The translations under genes were made by a program, and so were the position numbers. The notes under the pieces are model-generated. The model was not told the DNA's origin, ran no database searches, and saw only the letters and a list, made by a program, of their open reading frames with translations. Of a DNA stretch of 64,000 bases, positions 7,335-31,920 are shown in pieces. Each line of letters starts with the position of its first letter. Position 1 is the first letter of the stretch. The stretch is from positions 620,001 through 684,000 of the forward strand of contig NZ_CP095042.1 of assembly GCF_022919715.1 (NCBI RefSeq), read 5' to 3'. The stretch comes from Agromyces sp. H17E-10 (GTDB lineage: Bacteria > Actinomycetota > Actinomycetes > Actinomycetales > Microbacteriaceae).

Positions 7335-7400
7335 ACCTGGAGGGACGAACGAGGGGCCGGTGCACCCGCTGCCCCGGCCCCCCGTCCCTTTCGTCGGGCG

Positions 7401-10400
7401 CTACTCGGTGCGCCGCTCCCCCGGTCGACGACGACGGACGATCGTCGTCGCGACCAGCAGCGCGCCGATCAGCAGCAGCCCGGCAGCTCCCCACAGGAAG
7501 GGGCCTCCGGCGAACCCGGTCGAGGCGATCCCGGGCTTCGGGGTCGGCCTCGGCGACGGGCTCGTCACGACCGTGACCGTCACGGTCGAGTCGTCGCACA
7601 GGACGGGCAGTTCGGGATCGATCGCCGCGGCCGCACCGACCTCGCCCTCGGCGGCGGGCTCCGCCTCGGCCTCGGGCTCCACGGGCTCGTCGTCGGGATC
7701 GTTCCAGCAGACCTCGCCGGTGTTGTCGATGCTGTCGACGGTGGTCGCCGGATCGAGCACGACCGAGAGCCCCACGTCCGGAGCATCCGGTTGCGTGCCG
7801 CCGATCATGCCGTTGAGCACGCAGTGCAGCGTGCCGCCGTACCCGTCGGCGTCGGCGTCGGTCACCGCGCAGTCGTCCCAGCGCGGGAACGCGGGCGCCT
7901 CGGCCGTCGTGATGCCGGTGACCTTGAGGTCAGCCGGGATCTCGTCGAAGAGCTCCATGTTCTCGATGGCGCCGAGACCCGAGTTGGTCACCGACAGGGT
8001 GTAGTCGAATGCGTCGCCCGGCTTGGCCTGCTCGACGCTCGACGTCTTCACGATCTCGACCGACGGGTCGCGCACGACCTCGCACGCCGGGGTGGCCTGC
8101 GGGTACACCGCGAGGATCGACTCACTCGGGTTGACCGAGAAGGTGATCGTCATCGGATTCACCTGGTCGGCGAACGCGTAGCTCGGGAGCTTCGAGTCCT
8201 TGACCATGTTCTCCCACATGTCGACGATGCCGTTCTCGCCGACGACGTCGCCCTCCTCGATCAGGCGCCAGCCGGGCCAGCCGATCGAGATGCCGTCGTC
8301 GTTCACGACACCGTACGGCCAGAGCAGCCGGCCGTTGCGCTCGCTCCACGGCACCTGCATGACGATCGGCTCGGCGTCGGGGTAGACGGTCGGGTCGGGC
8401 GTCCAGGTCACCGTGATCGGCCCGGGCTCGACGTCGTCGGAGACCGCGACGTCGAAGTAGAGGTACGGCACGTCGTTGACGCAGCGGGTGTAGGCCGCCG
8501 GGTCGATGGCCTTCGTCGGCACGTCGACGTCGTCGCAGTCGTTCGCGGGCACCATGTCGGGGATCACGCCGTCCTCGGCGAGTGCGAGTCCGCGCGCGAG
8601 CCCGGCGAACTCGGCGAGCTCGGGCTGCTCGGACGCCACGATCGCAACGCAGGCCTCGTTGGGGATGTCGCCCAGGTCGACGACCGGCACGGGCGGCGCC
8701 GGGTCGTCGGGCCCGACGGGCGGCACCGGCGGCAGCGGCGCGGGCACGGCCATCTGCACCGGGATGGTGATGACGGTCACCGCCCCCGCCGGGTACGCGC
8801 CCGTGTACGTCGCCGCGAACGCGTTGTCGGCATCACCCGACGTCTGCGCCCACGTGCCCGTCTGCGCCGGGTCGTCGGCCGGCGCGAACGTGGCCGGCCC
8901 CGTGACGACGAGGTCGTCGTCGAGCAGGTCGGAGACCTCGAGGCCCGGCACGTCGAGCGTGCCGTGGTTCGTCACCGTGAGCCGGTACTCGAACGCGTCG
9001 CCCGCCTGCACCGCGGTCTGGTCGTCGGGAAGCACGTACTCCTTCTCGATGCCGACGTCGAACGACTCGGCGACGTTCTTCAGCGAGCACACGGTGGTGC
9101 CGCCCGGCGCGACCTGCGCGTGGGTGACCGCCGCGTCGCCGCAGAGCCAGGCCTCGGCGTGGTAGTACGCCGCGAACGGGTTGCTCGCGTGCGCGGCCGC
9201 CAGCTGCTCGCCGAGCAGGTAGGACCCGACCGGGACGACGAGCTCGAGGCCGCCGCCGTTCAGGTACTGCGCGAACGTTGTGGCCGACTCGCCGCTGAGG
9301 TTCCAGTCGGCTGCCGCGAGCAGCTCCGCCGGATCGATGCCGAGGTCGAGGAGAGCCGTGTTGTCGACCGACTTCGTGAGCCGCAGCTTGCCGACGGGGA
9401 TGTCGGTGCACCCCTCGAGCTCGGTCGTGAACGTGCCGTTCGTCATCTCGGCCGTGTTGAGGAATCCGCCGCCCGTCTCGGTCGCCTCGCACGTCGCGAG
9501 GTCGATCGAGGTGATGGAGGCGACGTTCGCGCGGACGGTGATCGTCCACACGTGGGTGTCTCCGGCCACGATCGCGTGCGCGGTGGCGAGGGTCGTCGCA
9601 TCCTGACCGTTCCAGTCGGCGACCGGGTCGCCGTCGGGATCGGTCGCCGACGCCGAGACGATGCTCACGCCGTCGGGGAATGCGAGCGCATCGTCGAGGT
9701 CGTAGACGAGATCGTGCGAGCCGACGGTGTCGACCGTGATCTCGTACTCGACCTCCCACTGGCCCGGTGCGACGAGGGTCGCGGGGCCGGTGGGCGCCTT
9801 CACCGCGGTCGTGCGGCCGGGCTCGTCGCACGCCCCGGCCTCGGTCGGCACGCCCGCGACGGTCAGCGTCGCGGTGTTCGCGAAGCCGCCCTGCTCGCCG
9901 GGCACGCAACTCGTCGAGCCCTCGACCTCCTCGGTCTCGGGGTCGTCCCAGACCACGTCGGCGGTGACGGTCGCGTCGACCGTCACGTCGTAGACGTGGG
10001 TGCCGACGGAGGCGGGGAGCACGACGTCGTCCGCGAGCTCCTCCACCGGCTCGGCCTCGGGGTCGGCCCAGGAGCCGGCGGCACCGTCGGGTCCCTGCCA
10101 GGCGGCCGAGTCGATGCGGATGCCGCTGCCGAAGTCGGCGAGCGAGTCGGTGAGGTCGTACGTGACCGCCGAGACGACGCTCTCGTCGGTGACCGTGACC
10201 CGGTACTCGATCGTCCAGCTGCCGTCGTCGTGCTGCACGACGTCGGTGACGTCCTTGACGACGGAGTACGTCGCCGGCTTCGCCGTATTGACGATCGTGC
10301 AGGTGACGTCGTCGCCCGGGTCGAGGTTCACGGTGTCGCCGTCGAGGACGCCGGCGGCGTCGCAGCTCCAGGTGCCGGCCTCGAACTCGTCGGCGCCTGC

Positions 10401-13400
10401 GAAGTCGGTCGCGACCTCGTCGAGCACGTAGTCGACGTTCGCGTCGACCGCCCCGCTCGCGGTGCCGGCGCCCGTGACGATCGGGTCCTCGCCGTCCTCG
10501 GTCGCCGAGACCGTCCACAGCGTCGGCGGGAAGTCCGCCGCGACCGCGTCGGGCTGCACCTCCTTCACGAGGGTGAGCTTCGGCGCGATGTCGGTGTTGA
10601 CGATCTCGCAGTCGACCGTGGCGCCGAGTTCGTGCACTTCGATGGTCGCGGTCGTCGAACCGGTCGCATCCGTGAGCGTGAATGCGTCGTCGCCCTGGTC
10701 GGACGTGCACGCCCAGGTCGCTGCGACCCGGTACTCGTCGCCGTTCGTCCACTCGACCGAGGTCTCGGCAAGGGTGTACGGGGCGTCGAGTCGAACGGAT
10801 CCGCTCGCCGTGCCCGGACCGCCGAAGCCGTCGCCGGGGCTCGATGCGCTGACGGTCCAGTCGTCGGCCACGGCGTCGCCGCCGTGCGCGTTGACGACCG
10901 TCTTCTCGAGGTTCACGGTCTGCGTGCAGTCGACCTCGTTCGTGATGAGGAACGTCGACACCGCGGCATCCAGCGTCTTGTCGCCCGTGCCGTTGCCGGC
11001 GGTGTCGACGAGCACGCACCCGGTGGGCACGACGACGTCGGTCTCGCCGACCGTCACCTGGTCGCCGAGGGCGTACGGTCCGGACTCGGCGCCCCAGTCG
11101 ACGTCGGAACCGTCGAGCTGCCCCTGGGCGGTGAACCCGTCGGGCAGGTCGTCGCTGTTCCACGCGATCGGCTCGCCGCCGTCGATGACCCATGCCTTGT
11201 CGACGATGACGACCACGGGCACGTCGCCGCAGTCGTCGGCGGTGTACTCGTCGCCCGAGATGACGGTCGCCGTGTTCAGCAGGCCGTCCCCCTCGGTCTG
11301 GTCGCCGGCGCAGACGAGGCCTTCGGCCGGGGCATCCGCGTCGACGGTGAAGGTGACCGTCACCGTGTAGGTGTGGGTCGCGCCGCCCGCGAGCGCCTGG
11401 TCGGCGACGATCTCGGTGTCGTCGTCGCCGTTCCAGCCGGGGTTGACCGTGACGTCGGCCGACTCGACCGTGGCACCCGTGATGACGACGCCGTCGGCGT
11501 AGTCGGGCGCGTCGTCGAGGTCGTAGACCAGCGCCTGGTCGGCACTCGTGTTGTGCACGGTGATCGTGTAGCTCGCCGTCCACCCGCTCGCGTCCCCGGT
11601 GACCGGGCCGTCGAAGGTCTTGGTCACCTCGGGCTCGGCGGGAAGGCCGCACCCCGTGTCGCTCGAGGGGATGCCGTTCGACGTGAGCGTGACCTCGTTG
11701 AGGAAGCCCACGTTCGGGTCCGCCTCGGTCGGCGAACAGGTGTTCGTCGTCGGGACGCCGAACGCCGCCTCGTCGACCTTCGCGGTGACGGTCACCGTGT
11801 AGGTGTGCACGCCGTCGATGCCGATGACCTTGTCGGCCGGTGCCGTGCTGTTCGGCACGATGTCGGCCGTCGGGTCGTTCTCGGGGTCGCTCCAGGTGCC
11901 GTTCGCGCCCTCGCCCTCCCAGCTCGCCGACTGGATGTCGACCTCGGGGCCGAACCGCAGCGAGTCGGCGAGCGTGTAGCGCGAGACGAACTCCGAGTTG
12001 CCGGTCACCGTGACGTCGTACACGATCGTCCAGAGCCCGTCGCCGTCCTGCGTGACCGTCGGGTCGCCCTTCACGACGGTCGGCTCGCCGCCGCGCTCGA
12101 TGTCGGTGCAGTCGTCGTCGGTGCGCGCGATGTCGCCCGACGTCACGATGGCGTTGTTCAGGAAGCCGACACCGTCGGAGTGGTCGGCGGTCTTGCACTC
12201 GAGTTCGTCGGGGTCGATGTCCCCGGCGGGGGCGTCGACGTTCAGCACGACGGTGTAGACGTCGGTCGCTCCGGCGGCGATCGGCTTGTCCGATGCCACC
12301 GTGAACGGCGAGCCGTCGTACGGGGTCACGGGTGCGCCCCCGTCGATCGCGTAGCCGAGGTAGGCGACGCCGGCCGGGAACGCCGGGTCATCGGTCAGCG
12401 AGTAGTACGACGGCTTGGCACCCGGGTCGGTGTTGGAGACGGTCAGCGTGTACGCGACGTTCCAGGTCGAGTCGGGCTGCTGGGTCGAGGTCGCCCCCGA
12501 CTTCACGATCTTCGGGGCGCTGGGCGAGTCGCACGCCGATGCATCGGCCGGAACGCCCGCGACCGTCAGGGTCGCCGTGTTGTTGAACGCCGCGTTCCCG
12601 CTGCCACCGGTCGGACATGCCGACTGGGCCGGTGTCAGGTCGGGGCCCGTGAGGGCGATGCCCGTGACCGTCACGCGGTAGGTGTCGCTCGGGTCGGGGT
12701 CGCCGGCCGCGAGGTAGGCGTCGTCGGCGAGGACGCCGCCGTTCGTCCAGCCGGGGATCGCGACGCCGTTCTTCGTGGCCGAGTACGTGCCGCCCGTGAC
12801 ACCGGCACCGAAGTGGGTGGTGTCCGAGAGGTCGTAGACGCCGCCGACCGTGCCGGTGTTCGTCACGACGACGTCGTACTGGATGCTCCACGTGCCGTCG
12901 ATCGCCTGCGCGACCGAGCCGGGGACGACCACCTTGGTGTGGGTGATCTTCGGCGACTCGAGGGTCACGCAGCCCGTGGCATCCGTCGTCTGGTTGCCCG
13001 AGACGAGCGTCGCCGTGTTGTCGAGGCCGTCCGCGCTCGGGCACGTGTAGGTCGGGTCGTCGGCACCGAGACGCACCGTGACCGCGATCTGGTAGACGTG
13101 AGCCGCCGCGCCGCCCGCGAGGGCGACGTCGTCGGCGAGGAGGTCGTTCGGCGCCGCCCCCGTCCAGGTGGGCACGGTCGCGACGCCGGCCGGCTTGCCG
13201 ACGACCGTCGGGTCGCCCTCCTGCGTCGCCGTGGTGGGCAGGTCGAGCTCGTCCCTGAGGTCGTAGACGACGCCGGTCGTGGCCGAGGGGTTCGTCACCG
13301 TGATCGTGTACGGCAGGGTCCAGGTTCCGTCGCCGTTGTCGACGGCGGTGCCGCCGGTCTTCGTGATCGTCGGCTTCACCGGCAGGGCGCAGTCGGATGC

Positions 13401-16400
13401 CGCGTAGGGGGTCTGCCCGACGTACATGGTCGCCGTGTTGAGGAATCCGACAGTGCCCGGCTCGAGGTCGTCGCAGGCCGCGGCAGTGGTGCCGTCGAAG
13501 TCGGCGTCCACGTCGAGGGTCGCGTTCACGGTGACCCGCCACGTGTGCGAGGTGCCCGGCGCGAGTTGCGGCTCACCGTCGAACGGCTGGATCTGGTCGA
13601 AGGGGACCGTCCAGTTCTCGCTCGATCCCGCCGGAAGCGGCAACGTGCGCTGGTAGCTCGCGCTGTTCACCGTGACCTCCGAGCCGAACTCGAGCCGGTC
13701 GGAGAGCACGTAGCCGAGCGACTGGAACGCGCTCGGGTTCGTCACGACGATGTCGTACGCGATGGTCCAGCTGCCGTCGGCGTTCGGCACGGGCACCCCC
13801 GCTGTCTTCGTGATCGACGGGGTGATGGGCTTGAGCGTGTTGACGACGGTGCACGAGAGCTCGTCACCGGCTCCGAGGGCGGGCACGCTCGCGGACGGGA
13901 CGGGAGTGTCGGGTCCGTCGTTGAGCGAACAGGTCCAGACGCCCGGGGCGAACTGGTCGGCGTGAGCGAGGTCGGTCGTCTCGGCGAGATCGAACGCGAC
14001 GCCCGCCGGCACCGGAACCGGGCCGCCGGTGCCGCCGTCGCCGATGGCGACGATCTGGTCGTCGTCGGCGCGGCTTGCGCTCAACGTGAACTCGTCGGCC
14101 GACACGACGCCGTCGGTCACGACCTTCTCGAGCTCGAGCGTCGGGGCGATCGGATCGTTGTACACGACGCACGTGCCCTGTCCGAGCGCGGCCACGGTGA
14201 TCTCGTTCGTCTCGACGAACTGGCCGTTCGGCGTCGTGCGGCACATGACCGACGTCTGCTCCCAGCCGTCGGGGCCCCCGGTCTCGGAGATCGTGTACGT
14301 CTGACCGGGGCGGACGAACACCGTGTCGCCCGAGGTCGCGTCGACGGCTCCGAGGCCGGCAGGAGCGGGCGCCTTCGGGGTCGCGACGAGCGTCCAGTCG
14401 GCAGGGTCGGCGTCGAGGTCGAGGTCGTTGTCGACGTTCTTGATGAGCGTCAGCGACGCCGTCTGGTTGACCGCCGTGCACTGCACCCGGAAGCCCAGCG
14501 GAACCGTGACCCCGCCGTTGAGGCCGTCGGCGAAGCCGGGGACGACCGTTCCGGCCGCGTTGACCTGCACGCAGTCCCAGCTGCCCGTGGCGGGCGGGAT
14601 CGGGACGGCGTTCAGGCCGAGCGTCTGCACGTAGCGCGGATCACCCGTCTCAACGAGCGGATACGTCACGTTCGGCGTCACGAGGGCGGTCGCCCCGGGG
14701 GTGCCGGTGGCTCCGTTCGGCCCGGCGAGCGCCCCGCCGGGGGCGACCGCGTCGAGGTTCCACGCGCCCGGTGCGGCCGGACCGTTCGCGACCGTCTTCT
14801 TCAGCGTCAACTGGGAGTCGCAGGTGACGGTGTTCGTGATCGTGTAGGTGTTGTCGCCGGGTTGCAGCGTCGCGCTGTACGGCAGGGCGCCGTTGGCCGG
14901 AGCGCTGCCGTTCGCGAGCGTCACCCTGCTGTCGGTGATGCGGCAGAGATCCCGAGAGCCGACGCTCGTCGTCTCGTTCAGCGACACGACGGTGTTGGCC
15001 GGGACCGGTCCCTGCGGCGTCACCCACGGCGCGTTCGCGCCGCCGACGGTGAGCTGGGCCGTGAGGCCGATCGGCTGCTGACCGTTCTGGTAGGTCACGC
15101 CGTTCACGACCCAGACCTTGTTGACGCTGTACGTCGCCTGCGGCAGCGGTGGCCGGTTCCAGACCGTGCAGCTGACGGCCTGCGTGGAGCTGACCGGGAT
15201 CGAGAAGCCGTTCGTCTCGTTCGTCACGGTGATGGCGCCGCCGGTGGCGACGTCGGTGCAGACGGCGTTCTTGCCGCTCGACGTGACGATGCTGTGGCCC
15301 TGCGGATCCTCGGTGACCTTGACCGTGCCAGAGGTCGTGCCGCCGGCGAACGTGAGCGGGAGGTTCACGGCGCCGGTTCCGGCCGCGGTCACACCCGACT
15401 GGGAGGCGGGCGTGATGCCGCCGGTCGTGGGCTGCGCGGTGAAGTTCCAGCCGCCGGCGGGGGTCTGGCCCGTCTTCTGCTCGCCCGTGCTCGTGTTCGA
15501 GACGACCTGCTTGACGACCGAGATCGATCCCTGGCAGGAACCGAGCGCGAGGTTGCGGAGGATCGTGCCGGCCTCGTTGTAGTCGGCCGACTGGAAGTAG
15601 TCGGAGTTCAGCGTGCTGCCCGAGATCGCGATCAGGTTGTTCGGCGAGCCGCCGACGCCGTCGCCGACTCCGAACGCCACGACGCGGGTGCCGAGCGCCT
15701 TGAGCGCGTTCGCCGAGAACACGCCGTTCTCGACCTCGCGGAAGCGCGTGCGGTTGCCGGGGCCTTCGTCGCCCGCGTAGACCGTCGGGTTGCCGTCGGT
15801 GAGGACGACGGCGAGGTCGTACTGCGTGCCGCTCGTCGCCACCTGGTAGATGCCGCGATCCCAGTTCGTCGCATCGGTCGGCGTCGAGAAGCCGTCGATG
15901 TGGTTGCGCACGGTGTTCGCGCCGGCCACGGTCGAGACCGGGGTGATGCCGAGGTTCGCGCCCGACGACGCCGGTGCCACGTTGTTGAAGGTGAAGATGC
16001 CGACCTGCGAGGGCGTGCCCTGCAGCGCCGTGACGAAGCCCTTGGCGGCGTTCTTCAGTTCGGTGAAGTTCGGTGCGACCGAGCCGGAGAGGTCGATCAC
16101 CAGCGCGACGCGCACACCGCACTGCTGGGCTCTGGTGGGATTCGCGAGCGAGTTCTGCCAGATGCCGCCGGACGCGTTGTTCGCGGTGCTGCCCGTGGCG
16201 ATCATGAAGTCGCTCAGCGAGCTGTACGTTCCGCCGCTGTCGATGACCGAGGTCTGGAAGCGGTACGGCGACGAGGCGGGCGATGTGCCCGTGGCGAGGT
16301 TGTTGTTCTGGAACCAGCCGGCCGGAACGCCCGGCGTCGCCTGGGCGACCCAGTAGCGCGAGCCGTTCGCGTTCGGCACCGTGAAGGTGCAGACGCCGGC

Positions 16401-17435: not shown

Positions 17436-17507
17436 GGTCGTCGAACCTTCTGATCGGGTAATGCCGCGCCACGTCGGATCGCGCAGTTGCGCCGAGTCAA
17501 GCAGAGG

Positions 17508-17654
17508 ATTCGGGGTACGTAACAGGGGTGGGCTGGCACCAAAACGGGGGACAACGCAGATTCTGATTAGAACTTTGATCTGGGGTTTTCAAAACCTTGT
17601 CCCCCGAAAACGGGGTTAACGACAAATACTCGAATAACCCCATTCGGGGGACAC
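17508..17654 (-). promoter_or_regulatory. Upstream region of the 3344-aa gene with repeated G4/C4 motifs
   Basis: Read on the plus strand, ATTCGGGGTAC (17508-17518), CCAAAACGGGGGAC (17539-17552), GTCCCCCGAAAACGGGGTTA (from 17599) and TAACCCCATTCGGGGGAC (17635-17652) form a cluster 75-220 bp before the start codon. The last two form opposed pairs. The same core recurs before the other three surface genes. Confidence 0.55.
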
Positions 17655-17660
17655 GAACAA

Positions 17661-17692
17661 CCGGGGGCCGGGCCTTCAGGCCCGACCCCCGG
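17661..17692 (-). terminator. Terminator of the 2397-aa surface gene
   Basis: Two 14-nt arms (17661-17674 and 17679-17692) around a 4-nt loop, 18 bp beyond the stop. The single plus-strand C/A mismatch becomes a U-G pair in minus-strand RNA, so the hairpin suits a minus-strand terminator. Confidence 0.75.
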
Positions 17693-17709
17693 AAGGTTGG
17701 TGCAGTGGG

Positions 17710-23700: not shown

Positions 23701-24903
23701 CGACGGCGGCGCCGCCTCGGTGAGCTTGTAGTCGTTCCCGGCGAAGACGTTGCCCCAGTTGTGGGTGTCGCCGATCTTGATCCCGGCGCCCAGGCCGTTG
23801 TTGCCGGCGACCGTGTCGGCGACCGTGCCCGTGAGCGTGCCGTCGTGCACCTGCCCGCCGCCCGTGCGGTTCACGGTGTAGCTGAACGTCGCGTCGGGAC
23901 CGCCCGCGGTACCGACCTTCTTGACGACGAGGTTGCCGCAGTTCGAGAGGGTGATCGGGTCGGTCGAAGCGAGCATGTCCTGCAGCGTCGCCGTGTCGTT
24001 GTTGCCGGTGCGCGTGATGAAGCCCGCGTCGAGGAAGGTACGGCAGGTGCCGCCGGCCGGCAGGAGGCCCGATGCCGTGAGGTCGACGGCCATCTCACCG
24101 AAGGTCGCATCGTTTCCCGAGGTGTTCGTGTCGGTGTTGCCGCCGACCGCCGCCTTGTACACGACCGGATCGCCGGTCGACACCCACGCCGAGCCGTTCC
24201 AGCCGAGCACGCGCACGGACGTTCCCGACGACGGGTCGTAGTTGAACTCGATGAGGTAGTCGTCGGCGCGCCCGGCAGCCGGCCCCTGGAAGATCTCGTA
24301 GGACGTCATGTCGCCGTTGCCCGACAGACGGGTCCAGTACGCGTAGAAGATCGTGTGCGGCACGCCGTTGACCGTCACGACCTCGTAGGCCGAGCCACCG
24401 GTACAGGCGTCGCCCTTGGCGTTCGCCGAGTTGGTGATCAGCGCCTTCCACGGGTCGTCGTTGACCTTCGCGCCGCCCGGGAAGACGCTGAGCGTCTCGG
24501 TCGCACCGCACGTGCCCTTCGCCCCGCCGTTGACGTCGGCCGGCGTCGTGCCCGAGTCCCAGCTGCGCTGGGCGTCGAGGATGCCCGTCGACTGTCCGCT
24601 CCCAGCGGTGTAGGGCGCCTTGGGCGTCGACCCGACGACGTTCCGCCAGTCGAGCTGCCCGTCACTGTCCGTGTCCCCGTCGATCTCGAACGACGTGATG
24701 ATCCCATTGCCGAGATCGACCGCCGACGCGGACTGCGCCGGTGCCAGCGCGACCGTGTACACGGCACCGCCCGTCGCGATCAGGCCGGCGATCGCGAGGG
24801 CGCTGATGAAGCGCTTCCTCGCGCGTTCGAGGCGCAGGCGCGTCGACCTGGGAGCGGTCGCCGGGTCGGTGGAACGGGTGCGGAAAGATCGCTTGACGTT
24901 CAT
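17710..24903 (-). CDS. Giant wall-anchored surface protein with eleven CnaB-like repeats (2397 aa)
   Basis: Predicted secreted filamentous protein. After a signal peptide (about 30-60) comes a roughly 270-residue beta-rich N-terminal domain containing Cys and Asn/Gly-rich loops. Next are eleven consecutive CnaB/SpaA-like (DUF5979-like) domains at about 325-1490. Each begins with a VxK strand, carries a TE or EE motif mid-domain and ends CTxxN, so a Lys/Glu/Asn isopeptide triad can be read in every copy, plus two Cys each. Then two WxxxY-type DUF11-like repeats, a further CnaB-like domain, a DUF11 domain, the shared Cys-bracketed module (about 2071-2205), a final DUF11 domain and the sorting signal MPATG, membrane span, RRRK. 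The last 900 residues are paralogous to the 3344-aa neighbour. ATG 24903 is preferred over 24906 because GAAGG then lies 6 nt upstream. No VWA domain. Function inferred: a mechanically stable stalk. Confidence 0.9.
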   Translation of the reverse strand: MNVKRSFRTRSTDPATAPRSTRLRLERARKRFISALAIAGLIATGGAVYTVALAPAQSASAVDLGNGIITSFEIDGDTDSDGQLDWRNVVGSTPKAPYTAGSGQSTGILDAQRSWDSGTTPADVNGGAKGTCGATETLSVFPGGAKVNDDPWKALITNSANAKGDACTGGSAYEVVTVNGVPHTIFYAYWTRLSGNGDMTSYEIFQGPAAGRADDYLIEFNYDPSSGTSVRVLGWNGSAWVSTGDPVVYKAAVGGNTDTNTSGNDATFGEMAVDLTASGLLPAGGTCRTFLDAGFITRTGNNDTATLQDMLASTDPITLSNCGNLVVKKVGTAGGPDATFSYTVNRTGGGQVHDGTLTGTVADTVAGNNGLGAGIKIGDTHNWGNVFAGNDYKLTEAAPPSPWAFKQTTCTVTNPTTNQVETTTNGGFAMYVGATTTCTIENVTSAVKITKVAQGDAATFDFTVTGQQGTVQVPGNSSSQVFYYTPGSTVDITEIAEPGDPAWKLQSIACTPQGGAYQTDVPTGKASVQTVAGQVIECTFTNRQDGQIKIIKKVQGDGGEFHFTGNWNGGVTPTLTPGENGSDEVLYTSVTPGAYSVQELTPAPEYDVTALTCAGDVADDTSSGNVATGVGTIDLDPGELVTCTYTNTQRGDLTVIKQTIPDGATQSFDFTLTDQTNFSLTDGGSKAFDNIKPKTYTLEEVNLPDGWKVDNISCAVDGGVPSQTTAAKRDVVVGIGQSVVCTVTNEATKGKLVVEKHVENVPDGVAWGPFSLSLSDAPASEQNPQTVDSTDATAEWDNLVVGKTYTITETVPDGWTLKSFTCNVTDQDGNPNNASVTFTVTPGLVVECDITNTAKPGEVTLEKKVEGVAPGFAWSFDFTISPADQVTPSAKQTVSGTGNSTESITWKNLTVGHVYTITETPKAGWESSAVECGEDVDPNTPGDQFRVTPGFTLTCTATNTAKPATAKVTKTAIGADGTFTFVLTPLAPAGDPVEQSVSVDAGQSGSTTFTALVPGTKYSIAEKDPGAGWTAGALVCKVKAIGSDTWTDIDETGFTVQPGDTFECTITNTAKATIVIVKNINGDDATFNFTGTWLDPQAFTITTVNGTKSNTYNDVLPGTYQVTELLTTAHIGALQCTDPDQGSSVAGLVGTIDLDPGETVVCTYSNTQLGKIIVDKVVPGVGSIPGGATQVFDFEFGDDPFTLTDGADPFESGLLVPGEYTVEELAEANWHLTGLQCPVGEGDKSTVEIDGSVATIDLAAGDVVHCTYTNAPDTGDLTVRKTVDGVPQGYDFEFEIFLAGGTPPSQKVTDEDPSVSWSDLVVGQTYTLTEGDVGGWNEGDFICNSGSLKDADDELAGFQFVVTPGLSISCTIENTAVPGKVTVEKGVSGVPEDFDWSFQLEISPTEGVEGDSPQTVSGTGDVTDTATWSNLAIGQQYVITELPVPAGWTGGEITCSVGGDPLTDENGDEAGFAFTATPGLEVACELTNKVIPPTGLIEKHLTSIAQQTDGTWDLEYEVTVENQSPVAPLVYDLRDEPQFGAGVVINEASATGPADSSAASWDPIGDPADFVLADDTSVPASQTDTYVITINATVPAEVYETGQDQCQEGDDGGFRNTAWLTVGHGEPQPATDCDVPGRTTIEKSLDGQPVRDAVTGDWTVKYNVVVTNQSDLRDQYYDLSDDLGFPAGVEIVSATATTDAPSTGSVDVADWNGDTVTALADDAPIAKSAVHTYKITVVADVDEITDIDDVQCVESTSGKGFFNEVTLDNGTITTTDDACATPPVGRITLMKHVDLSAFEGIDPADLGLGDGVVQLAAKDWLLTGEGLLKGIAELGDQGLVFTVPTGDYTLDEEPTAMAAGHPLLKYFFSQGWSCDDETPAGDTATVSLGKLTSCDLTNKAELADVGLEKSYDLGDDPDGYIEQGDTFDFVLKVTNHSTVPVAGLDVTDVIDSELVVAGDPVFDGPGTWTETGTTGDNDFAAHGDGPFAPGDVITITIPVTLPAAPVETPDVVGPDDPAPTVEPVDLDDVPNEACVAITDGEGVLPDLIERNNCDSVEVPKKAIDSGAYVRCVADVPWLYYDIQVSDGVEPGDITVTWTSADGTLTKTQTIAWDEREGKLLWPGAAVDENGVPYEFPGWRPITEEDLINPPTPGTRFGDLILDETVPTYPWRDMENPATITFSINPSQSVLAVYPQALPACAIDRTPDVSIVKEASVTQAKPGTSFDYTLSVSTTGTGSAEPVEIFDEIPSELKVTDITTAGSPTFPRWQDCEVTGQDSDGYGGTLHCDLLGVLGPDYPEAPDIVLDVSVDPGTTSTEVENTGEVCWQNADDTSDDPAVLCDDDSVTVTIPQPQPSMPATGFGGSPFIWGAAGLVILGGLLVAAGVVIRRRKHGTPSA

Positions 24904-24982
24904 CATCAGCCTTCGGGTTTCGGAAGCGGGAACTTCCGGCTGTAATCCGGCCCGGGCGACCGAGCCATTCGGAGTTCGCGGG

Positions 24983-25152
24983 CACGAACCCCGAAGTCCG
25001 CTGAAAGCGGACATGCGAGCCCGTGGGTGCGGACTCGCGCTCATACTCGCATCGCCGTGGGGCTGCGGATAGGGGGCGGGTGACACCAAAACGGGGGGAT
25101 CCTCATGTTCGGGGTACAGATCCGTCCCCGAAACACTCGAAAACGGGGTACA
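24983..25152 (-). promoter_or_regulatory. Upstream region of the 2397-aa gene with repeated G4/C4 motifs
   Basis: The 24904-25283 gap (380 bp) holds no credible gene. It contains CCAAAACGGGG (25086-25096), GTTCGGGGTACA (25107-25118), GTCCCCGAAA (25124-25133) and CGAAAACGGGGTACAG (from 25138), with a weaker GAACCCCGAAG near 24986. On the coding strand these read TGTACCCCGWWW. The segment CCCCCGTTTTGGTGYCA is shared with the 3344-aa gene's upstream region. The far end holds the terminator of the next gene. Confidence 0.55.
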
Positions 25153-25238
25153 GGTTCGATTTGCCCGGGTGCGTCGTCGTCAAGTCCAGTGTGCGAACCG
25201 GAGCGTCCCCCGATTCCGGACTTCGCGGCGAACGGCGA

Positions 25239-25270
25239 ATGCCTCGCCGGGATCGCTCCCGGCGAGGCAT
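25239..25270 (-). terminator. Terminator of the 864-aa surface gene
   Basis: Perfect 14-bp arms (25239-25252, 25257-25270) with a TCGC loop, 13 bp beyond the stop. The right arm overlaps a copy of CGAGGCATCC. Confidence 0.8.
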
Positions 25271-25283
25271 CCGTCTCAGTGGA

Positions 25284-27878
25284 TCAGTCGACGCGACGGC
25301 GGCGTGCTCCGCGCGCGATCGCCGCGGCCCCGATCGCCGTCAGCAGCACCGCGAACGGCAGCATCAGGCCGGTCTCGACACCCGTCTCGGCGAGTCCCTG
25401 CGTCGAACCCGTCGGAGTCGACGGCGGCGTCACGGGCGGCGTCGGCTGGTCGGGTGCCGCGTTGCAGTTCGGCGTCGGCGGCGGGTAGACCACGTCGGCG
25501 TCGCTGGACGGGTTGATGCGGATCTCGGCGACCGCCTGCGACCGCAGGTCGTAGAACGGTGCGCTCGGGTCGAGCACCCAGGTGCCGTCGGCCAGCTCGG
25601 TCCAGCCGGGCCAGGCGATCGGGTCTCCGGCTTCGTTCACCGCCGCTCCCGGCCAGAGCTGCTGGCCCGAGATCGTGTCGCCGCTCACCCATCCGTCGGG
25701 ATAGGCGATCGGGTCCACCTCCGACGCCCCGTCCGCGAGCAACGCCGAGATGTCATCGGCGGGGATCGACGGGTCGCGGTTCGCGAACGCCTCGGGCGTC
25801 CACCAGATCAGCGAGATCGGATTGGCCGCGGGGTCGGTGATGTTGAACGGCGTGATCGAGTACGTGAACCACGGGGTGTCGTTCACGCACTGCGCGAGCC
25901 CGACGAGGCCGATCGACTTCACGGGCGTCACGGCGTCGTCGCAGTTGTTCTCGGGATTCGAGTCGACCCCGGCGGCCGAGGCCGCGACGTCAGCAGCGAC
26001 CTGCGGCTCGGGGTCGGGATACGCCTCGCTCGCGACGCAGGCGCCGTTCACGAGATCGGGGATCGGCTGGTCGGGTGCGGGCTGCGAGAGCTCGCCGACC
26101 GTGGCCTCGAACGTGATCGTGATGACGTCGCCCGGGTAGATCCAGCCGTTGTGCTGCGCGGTGAGCACGCCGTCCGCGACCTCGACCGGATCCCACTCGC
26201 CGGGGTTCGGCGCGATGACCGCAGACCCGTCGACGTAGGTCACGCCCTCGGGAAGGGTGTCGGTGACGAGGCTCCGGTATGCCGGGTCCTCTCCCTCGTT
26301 CGTGACCGTGATGGTGTACGTGATGACGTCACCCTCGCCGGAGTCGACCGGTTCGTCGTTCTCGGTCGCCTCGTCCTTCACGAGCACGAGGTCGACGTCG
26401 GCGACCGGGTGGTCGACGACGCACGGGTCGTCCTCGGCCGCGACCGCGACCGCGGCCTTCTCGAGCACGACGTCGTCGGTCGGGCACTCGCCGCCGGGGC
26501 CGGGAACGACCACGTTATGCAGCAGGGTGCCGGCGGAGTCACCATCGACGATGACCGTGTACGTGACGGTCGCGGTCGCACCCGGTTCGAGGTCGGGGAT
26601 GTTCCAGGTCAGCACATCGCCGACCGGACCGGTGAGCCCCGCACCGAGCGTGCCCAGCGTGCCGTTGTCGAGCACGTCGCTCACGTCGTCGAACGCCTGC
26701 GCACCGGTCACGACCGCGTCCGAGTCGTTGTACGCCTGGAGGGTGTACGTGATCTCGTCACCGGGCTCGACCGTCTCACCGTCGGTCGGATCCGACCACT
26801 TCTGCAGCACCCAGTGCGGGACCGGAGCGGTCGGGCAGGGGTTCACGGTGACGGTCTTCTCGAGGTCGTTCTCGGGATCGTCGCCCTCGCGATGGAGCAC
26901 CACGTCGTACGTTCCCGGTTGCAACTGGAAGTCGTGGTCGAACGAACCGTCGGGGTCGGTGAAGTCGAACGTCGCGACGACGTCGTCCGTACCGGAGACG
27001 TACACGGTGATGGTGTAGTCGAAGTTGAGCAGCAGGTCGAGCAGCGTGACCTTCAGGGCCGGCGGCGTGCCGCCGACCTCGGTGCACACGGCGGCGAAGA
27101 GCTCGATCTCAGGCGGAGCCGGGTTGCAGTCCTCCTCGGTCAGCTCGGTCTTCGTGGTGTTGAGGCCGGGGAAGTGATGCTCGACCCCGTCCTTGTCCTT
27201 GTAGTCGAAGACCGGGATGATGTCCTGGAGGTCCTGATGCGTCGCGTGCGCGTGGCCGCCCGAGTACGGGTCGCTCGGGTCGCCGTTCGGGTCGATGATC
27301 GACCGCACGCTCGGGCTGATGAACACGTACGGGTTCGAGTCGCTCGCGGTCGCGTGGCAGATCGCGACGTGGTCGTTCCACTCGGGGATCGTCGTGACCG
27401 GAGGCCCGCCGGCCTCGTCGGCTGCGGCAACGGTCCTGGCCGCCGGAGCGGGCGACGTCGATGCTCCCGCCGGCGCGTCGGCCACCGGCGCCTCAGGCTC
27501 GGGCTCCGCAGCAGGGGCGGGCTCGGCAGCAGGGGCGGGCTCCGCCGCAGGGGCGGGCTCCGCCGCAGGAGCGGGCTCGGCAGCGGGCGCGGGCTCGGCA
27601 GCGGGAGCGGACTCCGCCGGCGCCGGTGCGGGCTCCGGTTCGGCCGCGGGTTCCGGGGCCGGCTCGGGTGCCGGTTCGGCCGCGGGATCGGGCGCCGGTT
27701 CGGCCTCGGGTGCGGCGGCGACCGCCGCGGTCGGGTCGGCGGGTGCCGCCTCGTCGGCGGCGGCGACCATGGGCGCTCCGAAGATCACGAGAGCGCCGAC
27801 GGTGACGGCGGCGAGCGCAGCGCGCACGCCCCCGCCTCGGATTCGGGCCGCGCGGTGCGCAGGCAGAGATCGTTGCAT
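25284..27878 (-). CDS. Wall-anchored surface protein with Pro/Ala/Glu stalk and LAETG signal (864 aa)
   Basis: Predicted secreted, sortase-anchored protein. Signal peptide about 15-41 ending VAAADE; a long Ala/Pro/Glu stalk (about 42-155) with six 18-bp tandem units; a His/Cys-rich segment beginning ICHATASDSNPY (about 172) and ending near EEDC. Then a Cys-containing beta domain, two DUF11-type repeats (VEPGDEITYTLQAYN and SGEGDVITYTITVTN), the Cys-bracketed module shared with the neighbours (about 662-810), and LAETG, a membrane span and RRRR. LAxTG is the signal class I associate with actinobacterial class E sortases. The start at 27878 has TGGAG 5 nt upstream. Its C-terminal half closely resembles that of the 1212-aa neighbour, so the two are probable tandem duplicates. 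Role inferred: surface adhesion or structure. Confidence 0.9.
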   Translation of the reverse strand: MQRSLPAHRAARIRGGGVRAALAAVTVGALVIFGAPMVAAADEAAPADPTAAVAAAPEAEPAPDPAAEPAPEPAPEPAAEPEPAPAPAESAPAAEPAPAAEPAPAAEPAPAAEPAPAAEPAPAAEPEPEAPVADAPAGASTSPAPAARTVAAADEAGGPPVTTIPEWNDHVAICHATASDSNPYVFISPSVRSIIDPNGDPSDPYSGGHAHATHQDLQDIIPVFDYKDKDGVEHHFPGLNTTKTELTEEDCNPAPPEIELFAAVCTEVGGTPPALKVTLLDLLLNFDYTITVYVSGTDDVVATFDFTDPDGSFDHDFQLQPGTYDVVLHREGDDPENDLEKTVTVNPCPTAPVPHWVLQKWSDPTDGETVEPGDEITYTLQAYNDSDAVVTGAQAFDDVSDVLDNGTLGTLGAGLTGPVGDVLTWNIPDLEPGATATVTYTVIVDGDSAGTLLHNVVVPGPGGECPTDDVVLEKAAVAVAAEDDPCVVDHPVADVDLVLVKDEATENDEPVDSGEGDVITYTITVTNEGEDPAYRSLVTDTLPEGVTYVDGSAVIAPNPGEWDPVEVADGVLTAQHNGWIYPGDVITITFEATVGELSQPAPDQPIPDLVNGACVASEAYPDPEPQVAADVAASAAGVDSNPENNCDDAVTPVKSIGLVGLAQCVNDTPWFTYSITPFNITDPAANPISLIWWTPEAFANRDPSIPADDISALLADGASEVDPIAYPDGWVSGDTISGQQLWPGAAVNEAGDPIAWPGWTELADGTWVLDPSAPFYDLRSQAVAEIRINPSSDADVVYPPPTPNCNAAPDQPTPPVTPPSTPTGSTQGLAETGVETGLMLPFAVLLTAIGAAAIARGARRRRVD
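27505..27612. repeat. Six 18-bp tandem repeats in the stalk of the 864-aa surface protein
   Basis: Units start at 27505, 27523, 27541, 27559, 27577 and 27595, with consensus TCSGCMGCRGGVGCGGGC. They encode repeated AEPAPA on the minus strand. The units are whole-codon length, so copy-number change would lengthen or shorten the stalk in frame. Confidence 0.85.
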
Positions 27879-27960
27879 GACAGCTCCAGACGTCGGGTAT
27901 GGGAGCCGGCTCGGGTAGTCGGGTCAGCAGTGCCAGTGTGCGCCGCGATCGGCGCCGACG

Positions 27961-27992
27961 ACAAGGATTTCTCATCTTTTGTACCCTGAAGA
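27961..27992 (-). promoter_or_regulatory. Upstream promoter block of the 864-aa gene
   Basis: Coding-strand TGAGAAATCCTTG (27962-27974 region) is shared exactly with the 1212-aa gene, at similar distances from the start (about 85-95 versus 70-80 bp). A degenerate GTACCCTGAA lies beside it (27981-27990). The shared block suggests a common promoter. Confidence 0.5.
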
Positions 27993-27994
27993 GG

Positions 27995-28029
27995 GGGATG
28001 CCCCGGCGCGCGTCGCGCCGAGGCATCCC
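27995..28029 (-). terminator. Terminator of the 1212-aa surface gene
   Basis: 16-nt arms (27995-28010 and 28014-28029) with a CGT loop, 20 bp beyond the stop. The one C/A mismatch on plus becomes a U-G pair in minus-strand RNA. The right arm contains CGAGGCATCC. Confidence 0.75.
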
Positions 28030-28048
28030 ACCGCCCGTCAGGCGGCGC

Positions 28049-31000
28049 TCATGCGCCGCTCGATCGACGCGCCCGAACCCACGCGCCGACGGCGCCGAGT
28101 GCGCCGAGCACGAACAGGGCGATCGCGCCCGACAGGAGGCCCGCCCCGTCGATGCCGGTCGTCGCCATGCCCTGCGGGGTCGACTGCCCGGGGTTCGACG
28201 GGTTCTCCGGCACCTCGTTCGCGGGCGGGGCCGCGTTGCAGTTCGGCGTCGCCGGCGGGTAGACCGTGATCACGTCGGTCGACGGGTTGATGCGGATCTC
28301 GACCACGGCCTCCTCGCGGAGGTCGTAGAACGGAGCATCCGGGTCGAGCACCCACGTGCCGTCGGCAAGCTCGGTCCAGCCGGGCCAGGCGATCGGGTCG
28401 CCGTTCTCGTCGACCGCTGCGCCCGGCCAGAGCTGCCGGCCGTCGATCGAGTCGCCCGGCACCCAGTCGGCGGGCACGTCGAGGTAGTCGACCTGCGAGG
28501 CGCCGTCGGCGAGGAGCGCCGCCTCGTCGCCCGCATCGATCGAGGGATCGTGCGCGGCGAAGGCGTCGGCCGTCCACCAGATCAGGGCGACCTGGGGCGA
28601 GTCGACGTTCACCGGCGTGACCGAGTACGCGAACCATGGCGTGTCGTTCACGCACTGCGCGCCGCCGTCGAGCGCGATCGACTTGACGGGGGTGGATGCC
28701 TCGTCGCAGTCGTTCCCGGGGTTCGCATCGCGGCTCGGGGCGTCGGCACCCGGGCCGACGACGTCGAGGGCGGCGATGAGCGCCGGCGGCTCGGGCGCGG
28801 GCACCGGCCCGCTGAACACGCACACCGTGTTCACGAGGTCGGGGATCGGCACGGTCGGATCGGGCTGGGCCAGTTCGCCCACCTCGACGTCGAACGTGAT
28901 CGTCGCCGTGTCGCCCGGCGCGAACGGCCCCGGATATCGGAACGTCAACTCGCCGCCGACCGAGTCGTCGATCGTCCAGCCCGCCTCCTCGCCGGGCGGC
29001 GTCGTCACGACGACCTCGGAGCCCGGCACGAAGGCCACGCCCTCGGGCAGCACGTCGGTCACCTCGACCCCGTACGCCGGGTCGTCGCCGAGGTTCTCGA
29101 CGCGCACCTCGTACGACACGACGTCGGGCGGCGTCGAACCGGAGTCGACCGCGTCGCCGTCGGCCGTGGTCGCGGTCTTCGTGACGGCGAGGTCGACGTT
29201 GGGCGTGCGATGCTCGGTCGTGCAGTCGGTCACCTCGGGCACGACCTGCGCGGATGCCCCGGGCGAACGCTGCGACCCGGCATCCAGCCCCCCGATGACG
29301 ACGGGCGGTTCCCCTCCCCCGTCGCCGGGCGGGCAGATGCCCGGGGTGTCGGGCGTCACGACGTTGACGAGCTGCGCGTTCCACGCGTCGTCGTCGACGG
29401 TGACCTCGAACGAGACCGTGGCCTCGTCGGAGCCGACCGCCAGGTCGGGCACGGCCCACTCGAGGTCGGTGCCGTCGAGCGTGAGCGACGGATCGAGCGG
29501 CTCCGTCAGGGTCGCGTCGTCGAGCACGTCGGCGAGGTCGTCGACCGCGGTCGCGCCCTCGACGCTCGCCTGCGAGAAGTTCCACGCGTGCAGCGTGTAC
29601 TCGATCGTGTCGCCCGGTTCGACGAGTCCGTCGGCGGGGTCGCTCGTCTTCCAGAGCACGAAGCCCGGCGTCGGGTGCTCGGTCACGCACGCGTCGGACT
29701 CGGCCTCGACCTCGTCGGGGCCGACGAGGAGGGGCTCGGTCGGGCAGTTCGTGAGCACGTGGTTGCGGAGCACCGTTCCCGGCGGGGTGTCCGCCGAGAC
29801 GATGACGCGGTACGTGATCTGCAACGTCTCACCGGCCTCGAGCGACGCGAGCTTCAGGAAGAGTCGGCCCGGGTGGGTCGTGTTCCAGTCCGACTCGACG
29901 ACGGGCGGCGACCCGACGAATCCGTCGAAGTCGACGTACGGGGCCAGCTGCGAGACGTCGTCGAAGAGCTCGAGGTCGGTTGCGGCCGGGCCCGAGACGT
30001 GCTCGACGGCGAGGGTGTACTCGATCTCGTCACCCGGCTCGACGGCGGTGCCGCTCGGCGGGTCGGCGCTCTTCGTGACCCGCCAGACCGGCGGCTCGAC
30101 GGCGTTCTCGACGGTGCAGTGCACGATCGACTCGATGCCGACGTCGACCCGCCAGCCGAGGTCGCCGACGAGGGTGACGGGCAGCGGCCCGTCGCCGTCC
30201 TCGCAGGCGACGTCGGTGCGGTGGTGGAACGGACGGTCCTCCTCGGCGAACTCGACGGTGCGGGTGTCGCTCGTGAACCCGGTCACCTCGAACGCCTCGG
30301 TCGTGCCCGTCTCGTCGGTCGTCTGCGACGACGGCGACACCTCGGCGTCGCCGGTCGCGAACTGCCAGCCCTCGACGGGCTGGCCGGCGATCTCCTTGTG
30401 CACGAAGACCGAGCCGCCGCAGAGCTCGAGCGCGATCTGCTTGAGCTGGCCGCCGAGCGTGCCGTAGTCGGTCGTGACGACGTGGTCGGCGCTCGTGAGG
30501 TCGCCGCCGTAGACGTCGTCACCGGTGATGGCCCTGATCGGCTCGAGGTCGAGGTCGCTGCCGACGGCGATGCCGAACAGGTGCGACGGCGAGAGCTTGA
30601 TCGCGTTCGCCTGCTCGATCGCCGGGTCGAGCGCACCGGCCGAGCCGTCGGGGAACTCTCCCCCGTCGGCGGGATCGACGGTGTTCGGATTGCCGTCGGT
30701 GATCATGATCGTGAGGTCGACCGCGTCGTCGAAGCCGCCGAACGTGCCGGCCGCGAGTTCGAGCCCGCGCTTCCAGTTCGTCCAGCCGTCGCTCACGAGG
30801 CCGGCGTACGAGCCCTGGATCGCGGCGAGGTTCGCACTCGTCAGGTCGGTCGCCCCGAGCAGCACCGACGCGTCCTGGTCGAACGCGGTCACCGACACCT
30901 GCGAACCGGTGTCGACGAGCGCACTCGTGAACGCGTCGGCTGCCGCCTTCAGGTTCGCGATGCCCGCGGCACCGATCGAGCCCGACTTGTCGAGCACGAG

Positions 31001-31687
31001 CGCGATGTCGACGCCGCAGTTCGGCTGCAGGTCGGGGTTCGCGACCGTGCCCACCGTCGGGGCGGCGGCGGCGAGCGAGCGCAGACCCGTGCGCTGTTCG
31101 GCGAGGCACGCGTCGCGCGCGCTCCGATCGTCGTTCGCGATCGGGATCGTCTCGCAGTCGACGGCGACCGCGGCCCGCTTCGGCGTCGCCGCGGCCGGGG
31201 CCTCGTCCGCCGGGGCGTCGGTGGCCGCGCCCGGCGCAGAGCCGTCCTGCGCGGCCACGGGGCCGACCGGGCCGGCGGCCGGATCGTCGCCCGGCGGATC
31301 GACCGGATCGGCGGCCGGCGTCTGCTCGGCCGGCGTCTGCTCGGCCGGCGTCTCCTCGGCCGGTGTCTGGGGCTCCGTCGCCGGCTCGTCGGCAGGTGCC
31401 GGCGGATCGACCGGATCGGCCGGATCGACCGACGCCGTCGGCTCGGGTTCAGCCGCAGGGGGTTGCGTCGCAGACGCCGTCGGGGATGACGCGTCCGCGG
31501 TCGCCGCCGACGTGCCGGCGGGTGCCGCCGCGTCGTCAGCCGACGCGATCGCCGGTACTCCGGCGAGCACGAGCGCGCCCGCCACGACGGCGGCGAGGAG
31601 ACCACCGAGACCGGGGCTCAGTGTCCCCCGAATCCGCGTTCGGGGTTCGGGTCGGGTTCTGCTGCGTGGTTGCATGGTTCCGCTCAT
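28049..31687 (-). CDS. Wall-anchored VWA/DUF11 surface protein (1212 aa)
   Basis: Predicted secreted adhesin-like protein. Signal peptide about 24-50; Ala/Pro/Thr/Glu stalk (50-190) with repeated AEQTP; VWA domain (about 225-430) with MIDAS DKSGS at 233-237 and ITDGNP downstream. Then one CnaB-like domain, several DUF11-like repeats, the Cys-bracketed module (about 1010-1158), and MATTG near 1173, a membrane span and a basic tail. It is closely related to the 864-aa neighbour from the DUF11 region onward but has a VWA head instead of the His/Cys segment. ATG 31687 and ATG 31675 are both possible; neither has a clear Shine-Dalgarno. It is the most upstream of the four minus-strand surface genes. 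Confidence 0.9.
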   Translation of the reverse strand: MSGTMQPRSRTRPEPRTRIRGTLSPGLGGLLAAVVAGALVLAGVPAIASADDAAAPAGTSAATADASSPTASATQPPAAEPEPTASVDPADPVDPPAPADEPATEPQTPAEETPAEQTPAEQTPAADPVDPPGDDPAAGPVGPVAAQDGSAPGAATDAPADEAPAAATPKRAAVAVDCETIPIANDDRSARDACLAEQRTGLRSLAAAAPTVGTVANPDLQPNCGVDIALVLDKSGSIGAAGIANLKAAADAFTSALVDTGSQVSVTAFDQDASVLLGATDLTSANLAAIQGSYAGLVSDGWTNWKRGLELAAGTFGGFDDAVDLTIMITDGNPNTVDPADGGEFPDGSAGALDPAIEQANAIKLSPSHLFGIAVGSDLDLEPIRAITGDDVYGGDLTSADHVVTTDYGTLGGQLKQIALELCGGSVFVHKEIAGQPVEGWQFATGDAEVSPSSQTTDETGTTEAFEVTGFTSDTRTVEFAEEDRPFHHRTDVACEDGDGPLPVTLVGDLGWRVDVGIESIVHCTVENAVEPPVWRVTKSADPPSGTAVEPGDEIEYTLAVEHVSGPAATDLELFDDVSQLAPYVDFDGFVGSPPVVESDWNTTHPGRLFLKLASLEAGETLQITYRVIVSADTPPGTVLRNHVLTNCPTEPLLVGPDEVEAESDACVTEHPTPGFVLWKTSDPADGLVEPGDTIEYTLHAWNFSQASVEGATAVDDLADVLDDATLTEPLDPSLTLDGTDLEWAVPDLAVGSDEATVSFEVTVDDDAWNAQLVNVVTPDTPGICPPGDGGGEPPVVIGGLDAGSQRSPGASAQVVPEVTDCTTEHRTPNVDLAVTKTATTADGDAVDSGSTPPDVVSYEVRVENLGDDPAYGVEVTDVLPEGVAFVPGSEVVVTTPPGEEAGWTIDDSVGGELTFRYPGPFAPGDTATITFDVEVGELAQPDPTVPIPDLVNTVCVFSGPVPAPEPPALIAALDVVGPGADAPSRDANPGNDCDEASTPVKSIALDGGAQCVNDTPWFAYSVTPVNVDSPQVALIWWTADAFAAHDPSIDAGDEAALLADGASQVDYLDVPADWVPGDSIDGRQLWPGAAVDENGDPIAWPGWTELADGTWVLDPDAPFYDLREEAVVEIRINPSTDVITVYPPATPNCNAAPPANEVPENPSNPGQSTPQGMATTGIDGAGLLSGAIALFVLGALGAVGAWVRARRSSGA

Positions 31688-31745
31688 CTCGTACTGGATG
31701 CACCGGCTCGGCCTTCGGGTCGGCGCGGTCAGTCTTCTCCGGCCC

Positions 31746-31820
31746 GTCCCCCGTTTTCAAGGATTTCTCACCTCTCACCCCCCGAAGTCGGGGTACAGAA
31801 ATGAGCGATTTCGGGGTACA
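31746..31820 (-). promoter_or_regulatory. Upstream region of the 1212-aa gene with repeated G4/C4 motifs
   Basis: Coding-strand TGTACCCCGAAATCG and TGTACCCCGACTTCG lie 23 bp apart (about 31806-31820 and 31783-31797). They are followed by TGAGAAATCCTTG (31757-31769) and GTCCCCCGTTTTC on plus (31746-31758). The TGAGAAATCCTTG block is identical to that of the 864-aa gene. The 240-bp gap also contains the yihY promoter. Confidence 0.55.
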
Positions 31821-31914
31821 CGCTGAGCGGGGTTCAGTGCTGCCCCTGAGCGGCCCCGGTCGGAGCATCCCGGACAGCACCGCCGCCGTGCAGGGGGCAA
31901 CTCACGCTTCTCGC

Positions 31915-31920
31915 TATCGT
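31915..31920 (+). promoter_or_regulatory. -10 element for a leaderless yihY transcript
   Basis: TATCGT ends 7 nt before the GTG at 31928, so transcription would begin at or next to the start codon. No Shine-Dalgarno is present. Confidence 0.45.

Follow-up and report, generated by a model that had tools for sequence, protein, structure and literature searches.

What do four giant wall-anchored surface-protein genes standing side by side on one chromosome encode, separate adhesins or the parts of one fibre, and how did they come to lie together? We addressed this question for a 64,000-nucleotide stretch of Agromyces sp. H17E-10 (the window; bases 620001-684000 of a single-contig genome of 4.25 Mb), in which positions 7401-31687 hold four minus-strand open reading frames, all with coding-type codon positions and transcribed in the order protein 4, protein 3, protein 2, protein 1 (Table 1). 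These are the four same-strand genes of an initial annotation, which had read the locus as grown by duplication and head swapping and as possibly encoding a multi-component surface fibre. The evolutionary half of that interpretation held, whereas a covalent multi-component fibre was not supported. We consider it likely that the locus is a repertoire of singly anchored adhesins at a dedicated Agromyces site, evolving by duplication, exchange and loss and partly co-regulated with attachment genes.

Four putatively anchored proteins with different heads and related tails

Inspection of the four translations by eye confirmed a leader, a Pro/Ala/Glu-rich stalk, a sorting motif, a membrane span and a basic tail in each, as initially annotated. 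VWA heads with intact metal-ion-dependent adhesion site (MIDAS) motifs, expected for two proteins, were identified in proteins 1 and 4, whose VWA domains carry the DxSxS and TDG motifs of VWA/MIDAS adhesins (VIDLSGS at 446 and TDGNP at 546 in protein 1; VLDKSGS at 231 and TDGNP at 330 in protein 4). Only protein 4 matched Pfam VWA above the cut-off, and the VWA domain of protein 1 was assigned via its 28% similarity to protein 4. Modules of the CnaB/DUF11 type had been claimed for all four proteins. Family scans revealed DUF11 and an RrgB-D2-type fimbrial domain in protein 1 and DUF7927 with DUF11 in proteins 3 and 4, whereas CnaB/SpaA repeats were confined to protein 2 (11 copies, residues 381-1551; SpaA_4, E 7e-84).

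The isopeptide triad of CnaB domains was likewise found in protein 2 only, with K, E and N in 11 of 11 repeats, each of which also has two cysteines. Isopeptide and disulfide bonds probably lock the stalk of this protein, and its head is possibly a beta-sandwich with a CBM9-like fold, for which glycan binding is a possible role. Searches by sequence for PDB relatives of proteins 2 and 4 returned none at E 0.01. The head of protein 3 is CHAT-type (ICHATxSxxNPYV). A CHAT domain (CHATxSxxNPYV ... HQD ... P.F.Y) was seen in P0003 (residues 170-260), in an 861-residue anchored protein and in a 129-residue protein (at 2347299); in none of the three does this domain match Pfam, and the domains of the other two are 38% identical to that of P0003.

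Alignment bore out the paralogous C-terminal pairs, with 42% identity over 1153 aligned columns for proteins 1 and 2 and 45-51% over 682-525 columns for proteins 3 and 4. A related terminal module is present in all four proteins, with about 28-29% identity between the two pairs.

A single chromosomal site is occupied by none to four genes

The locus is flanked by sdhCDAB on one side and by a BrkB/YhjD-family gene followed by eep on the other. Searching with sdhB gave a match in 41 of 41 Agromyces genomes, and the DNA downstream was taken for the other 40 and extended for seven of them. Surface genes were counted on the strand opposite sdhB with a composition filter, which revealed four genes in 4 genomes (the window, L007, L008 and L012), three in 4, two in 11, one in 3 and none in 19. 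In the two-gene class, one locus ends at a contig end and one second gene, missed by the filter, was added by hand (P0061 in L015). In the 22 occupied loci the four proteins have 371 matches, every one of them on the opposite strand from sdhB; this check covers only matches to these proteins. At 18 of the 19 empty sites, yhjD, or eep where yhjD was not found, follows 32-239 bases after sdhB; the other (L030) holds 1.7 kb with two short unrelated frames. The four-gene genomes all share one gene order, and most subsets keep it. The exceptions are L011, where the gene with head 4 is placed between those with heads 1 and 3, and L031, whose set differs. Also present in L031 (G017, 632-9930) are a frame that looks dehydrogenase-like by eye and a VWA-like giant that lacks the usual terminal module.

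On a tree of 40 taxa based on eep, a HAD gene and part of sdhB (L020, at a contig end, was left out), the distribution of occupied and empty sites required 6 changes, a number as low in only 1 of 1000 label shuffles (mean 13.7), indicating that the state of the site is inherited yet has changed several times. The initial annotation had named unrelated insertions or genes scattered singly in relatives as outcomes that would speak against it. Neither was seen in the Agromyces site comparison, where a lone gene, in the same position, is present at 3 of the 22 occupied sites.

For the comparison outside the genus, up to 8 kb beside eep was taken from 40 of 59 other genomes, each from another genus and with a good eep match; G099, G086, G052 and G058, of similar rank, and genomes with weaker eep matches were left out. 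None of the four proteins had a match at E 1e-8 beside eep in these 40 other Microbacteriaceae genera. Both sdhB and yhjD lay within the fetched stretch in 28 of the 40, and the one gene between the anchors that was tested is of the phosphoenolpyruvate-utilising, phosphotransferase system enzyme I type. Related loci were found in four named genomes, three of Agromyces and one a Propionicimonas metagenome-assembled genome. The terminal module (residues 500-840 of protein 3) occurs in 27 of the 41 Agromyces genomes; all 14 genomes lacking it have an empty site, and five empty-site genomes have some match elsewhere. The H17E-10 genome has a second terminal-module gene, at 336106-338691, which encodes the 861-residue protein with LAETG and the CHAT domain. 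A genus-specific adhesin locus is the best reading of these data.

Heads and tails occur in different combinations

To each of 53 proteins from occupied sites, including the window's four as self-matches, we assigned the best-matching window head and tail. Head 1 was paired with tail 1 (8 proteins), tail 2 (11) or tail 4 (1), and head 4 with tail 4 (9) or tail 1 (3; L009, L011 and L022). Head 2 was combined with tail 2 (8) or, in L015, with tail 4 (1), tail 3 being an equally close match for that protein. Head 3 was found with tail 3 in 7 proteins and without a tail in 1. Head 2 was also called with tail 3 in L013, L018 and L033, weakly, at 24-25% identity, and for one protein no head was matched. 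Two of the 11 head 1-tail 2 proteins are weak cases, the second protein of L029 (head 27%) and the first surface protein of L031 (tail 29%, 36 bits), and one head 4-tail 4 case (L027) lacks a VWA match. A chimera is found in L016, where head 1 is 75% identical to that of the window and the tail is closer to tail 2 (57%) than to tail 1 (44%). These pairings support a reassortment of heads and tails between genes. With one site holding none to four genes in 41 genomes and differing head-tail combinations, the proposed growth by duplication and head swapping is well supported.

A single distant sortase and predicted separate anchors

The genome has one sortase-family gene (PF04203 match), located at 1.965 Mb and 1.3 Mb from the locus, with trpG- and rhomboid-like frames (by eye) as neighbours. 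Its nearest solved relatives are 5utt (7e-31), 5go5/5go6, 5uus and SrtE1 5cuw (4e-18), by which likeness it is probably a class E sortase. Class E enzymes are described in PMC5148588 as favouring Ala at the second position of the sorting motif. The class E A-x-TG motif with a hydrophobic span and a basic tail was found in three of the four proteins (IASTG, LAETG and MATTG); protein 2 has MPATG. Of 68 homologues and window proteins, 60 show the pattern and 8 do not; Ala occupies that position in 50 of the 60.

CnaB and DUF11 modules resemble pilins and all four genes occur together in 4 of the 41 genomes, as might be expected if proteins 1 and 4 were VWA tips, protein 2 a CnaB shaft and protein 3 the base of one fibre, covalent or not. 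However, the cluster lacks a sortase gene, and thus the dedicated class C sortase of a Spa-type pilus, and simple patterns, which could miss degenerate forms, detected no pilin motif lysine (YPKN type) in the four proteins. A sortase-assembled pilus, and with it the covalent form of VWA tips on a CnaB stalk, was therefore set aside. In addition, a separate wall anchor was seen by eye in each of the proteins, a hairpin of its own follows each gene, and relatives keep single genes or other subsets. We thus regard a multi-component fibre as improbable, though the proteins may still form a non-covalent one.

Substrates of class E sortases are described as developmental elsewhere (PMC5148588; PMC13251363). 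By analogy, the four proteins might form a structural or morphogenetic coat, such as a hyphal sheath or a means of cohesion between branching filaments, rather than act as ligand-binding adhesins. Their distinct head domains, two of them with MIDAS motifs, speak against such a coat, as does the site being empty in 19 of 41 genomes, which argues against a core morphogenetic role; we consider it quite unlikely. Attachment by separately anchored adhesins is the most likely function.

An upstream motif shared with other surface genes

The intergenic gaps measure 170, 377 and 274 bases, and strong hairpins follow all four genes, so that separate transcription units are likely and a single operon was rejected. 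Simple consensus scans detected no sigma-70-type promoter and one terminator-like site at a gene end; shuffled sequences gave at least as many such sites.

The upstream regions of the locus have short motifs in common, and the motif TGTMCCCCGWW, which is new here, precedes genes 1, 2 and 4, with a further copy about 20 codons inside gene 4 (31622-31632, plus strand). Of its strict form the window has 7 copies, against an expectation of 0.13; the genome has 26, compared with 2 for the reversed pattern, and the 41 Agromyces genomes together have 370, compared with 80 for the control. Four-gene genomes have a mean of 23.5 sites versus 6.6 in empty ones (control 2.2 and 1.5), and in several occupied genomes the strict motif is no commoner than the control. 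In relatives, five of six regions orthologous to that upstream of gene 3 have one or two looser sites. The loose form GT[AC][AC]CCCG[ATC] occurs 75 times in 25.6 kb of DNA upstream of 52 genes, 37 of which have at least one site, 83 times in 828 kb elsewhere in the same loci and 31 times in 319 kb of the 19 empty loci. The upstream enrichment of about 29-fold is a guide only, because the upstream regions are interrelated and the remaining DNA is mostly coding. The commonest spacings between sites are 11 (inverted, eight times), 34 (seven), 23 (five), 54 (three) and 42 (three) bases.

By our own reading, 19 of the 26 genome sites are placed no more than about 450 bases ahead of a gene whose product is a surface, secreted or appendage protein (Table 1). 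One of these genes heads an operon with the composition of a Tad pilus operon, in which TadE, Tad, RcpC, ParA-like, T2SSE and two T2SSF genes, all above cut-offs, follow the Flp-like gene; the Flp_Fap match of the latter (29.9 bits) is under the cut-off of 32.2. The TasA-like gene adjoins a SipW-like signal peptidase gene; both labels were given by eye, the former protein having no Pfam family and the latter a sub-threshold S26 match. The remaining seven sites, at 250631, 593537, 593626, 651622, 1663282, 2682420 and 3804274, do not precede such genes.

The pair at 593537/593626 (L081) recurs, 86-91 bases apart, in at least eight other Agromyces genomes, including empty-site ones, and lies 27-35 kb from sdhB where both are on one contig. 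It is flanked by a carboxylase-subunit frame (by eye) and by a two-component system, and no gene was seen downstream of it. Genes for a LuxR/NarL-type response regulator and for a histidine kinase are found no further than about 3.4 kb from the pair, and one neighbouring frame has no family; a link of this two-component system to the motif would be a guess only. No Rfam-type RNA family was found near the conserved pair or the Tad promoter.

Eight hand-picked loci of relatives were examined for the motif. Three sites belong to the Flp-like gene in G032, with the spacing of three of the four in H17E-10, and in G020 the motif locus encodes an 841-residue anchored protein resembling the 861-residue one. 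The empty-site genome G031 has two anchored SpaA-domain proteins at another locus (C36:40525-44611, L136), each with one motif site and with a FEIDGN head motif resembling that of protein 2 (by eye). The other loci were mixed (L134, an Hsp70-family gene and a secreted hydrolase, by eye), held a histidine kinase (L137) or a non-surface gene (L138, by eye), or had no gene start in reach (L135 and L139).

Instead of a regulator site, the motif might be a clade-specific repeat or a DNA-structure element copied along with promoters: its counts differ strongly between clades, orthologous upstream regions are related, and 7 of the 26 sites lie elsewhere. It also precedes unrelated genes, however (the Tad pilus operon, the M6 peptidase and the Big_9 giant), three of the four Tad sites recur at the same spacing in G032, and the commonest spacings listed above also speak against it, which makes this explanation rather unlikely. 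Among known regulators, the BldM group I site of Streptomyces, given as TCACcCgnncGgGTGA in PMC4125116, has a similar half-site. It differs in its centre of 2 bases, compared with 4 here, and the commonest half-site here is also different, so that the 16-base palindrome of the BldM regulon, TCACCCGnnCGGGTGA, was not found. BldM, for whose gene no search was made, was not retained as the regulator because the likeness is confined to the half-site, and BldC was rejected since its repeat AATTxxxxC differs from the motif.

Table 1. The adhesin locus, its borders and genes behind the motif TGTMCCCCGWW. Positions refer to the window unless marked as genome positions.
Feature	Position	Strand	Details
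Gene 1, putative giant wall-anchored protein 1	7401..17435	-	3344 residues; leader, stalk, VWA-like head with MIDAS motifs (~430-680), RrgB-D2/DUF11-type modules, terminal module, IASTG anchor
Gene 2, putative giant wall-anchored protein 2	17710..24906	-	~2398 residues from ATG 24906, favoured by relatives (longest frame 17710-25089, 2459 residues from TTG); possible beta-sandwich head, 11 CnaB repeats (each with K/E/N and two Cys), terminal module, MPATG anchor
Gene 3, putative wall-anchored protein 3	25284..27878	-	864 residues; Pro/Glu-rich stalk, CHAT-type head, DUF7927, DUF11 (pilin-D2-like fold match), terminal module, LAETG anchor
Gene 4, putative wall-anchored protein 4	28049..31687	-	1212 residues; stalk, VWA head with MIDAS motifs, DUF7927, DUF11, terminal module, MATTG anchor
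sdhB	6407..7177	+	left border of conserved site
yhjD	31928..33223	+	BrkB/YhjD-family membrane protein; right border
eep	33233..34072	+	Exo/endonuclease/phosphatase family; second right-hand anchor
Hairpin after gene 1	7330..7400	-	z -2.5
Hairpin after gene 2	17640..17709	-	z -4.2
Hairpin after gene 3	25213..25283	-	z -4.2
Hairpin after gene 4	27978..28048	-	z -5.4
Upstream region of gene 1	17436..17709	-	three sites: 17543-17553(-), 17598-17608(+), 17643-17653(-)
Upstream region of gene 2	24907..25283	-	two sites: 25108-25118(-), 25142-25152(-)
Upstream region of gene 3	27879..28048	-	no site; TGAGAAATCCTTG in common with region before gene 4
Upstream region of gene 4	31688..31927	-	one site: 31810-31820(-)
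861-residue anchored protein			motif upstream
Flp-like pilin heading Tad pilus operon	genome 1488700-1496220 (L082)		four sites upstream
TasA/camelysin-like gene	genome 2144539-2147199 (L087)		site 34 bases before start
SdrD_B/DUF11 giant			motif upstream
Big_9 giant			motif upstream
Protein of >1625 residues			motif upstream; leader by eye, no Pfam family
129-residue protein			motif upstream; CHAT domain
M6 peptidase			two sites upstream; a GH5 gene may be their target instead
371-residue protein			motif upstream; leader by eye

Discussion

Several known systems resemble parts of the locus. The sdrCDE genes of Staphylococcus aureus form a tandem cluster of wall-anchored adhesins and are likewise paralogous, with different heads, repeats and a common anchor end. 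The Agromyces proteins differ in their size of up to 3344 residues, their VWA, beta-sandwich and CHAT heads, their probable class E anchoring and tails that appear to reassort between heads. The FCT pilus region of Streptococcus pyogenes has fixed chromosomal borders and a variable content of surface proteins as well, whereas the cluster described here has no sortase gene and no pilin motif by pattern, and varies between species. In a second structural comparison, the top match of the first modules of protein 2 was the Mobiluncus mulieris adhesin (PDB 5u6f, 5u5o), cross-linked by disulfide, isopeptide and ester bonds. Both have repeats with isopeptide and disulfide residues, but the match (root-mean-square deviation 15 A over 220 residues) indicates a modular likeness only, and protein 2 has 11 repeats with predicted bonds. 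The SrtE-anchored proteins of Streptomyces (chaplins) and Actinoplanes (CwpA, CwpB and SspA) probably depend on the same kind of sortase and share A-x-TG signals; they are described as hydrophobic (PMC13251363) or disordered, whereas those of the locus are giant and multidomain. Agromyces is listed among the hyphal taxa favoured by soil calcium (PMC10587086). Among the titles listed for Agromyces sortases or adhesins and for the letters of the motif, we found no description of this locus.

In the reading we favour, that of a repertoire of singly anchored adhesins, each protein would be exported and then attached on its own to peptidoglycan by the single sortase, probably of class E. Its long stalk would be tipped by a head that differs between the proteins: two heads are of the VWA/MIDAS type, one is a putative beta-sandwich and one is CHAT-type. 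The locus would have grown by duplication and would change by head-tail exchange and loss. Because genes 1, 2 and 4 share the upstream motif with the Tad operon and other secreted or surface genes, they are probably switched on together, presumably for surface attachment and at least in the clade of the window. More tentatively, we propose an Agromyces surface-attachment regulon, in which a putative regulator would act on helically spaced TGTMCCCCGWW sites before the genes for giant adhesins, for the Tad pilus, for secreted enzymes and for a fibre protein labelled TasA-like by eye. Its central adhesin locus would be a recombining store of cassettes in which neighbours exchange heads and tails and of which whole sets may be lost or regained between species.

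To our knowledge, the attachment of soil actinobacteria to surfaces is poorly understood. The locus offers a testable set, with one site holding none to four giant adhesins, natural head-tail chimeras and a single sortase. The shared upstream motif is the lead of most interest: as a candidate DNA signal it ties the adhesins to the Tad pilus and, if real, could lead to an attachment regulator of the genus.

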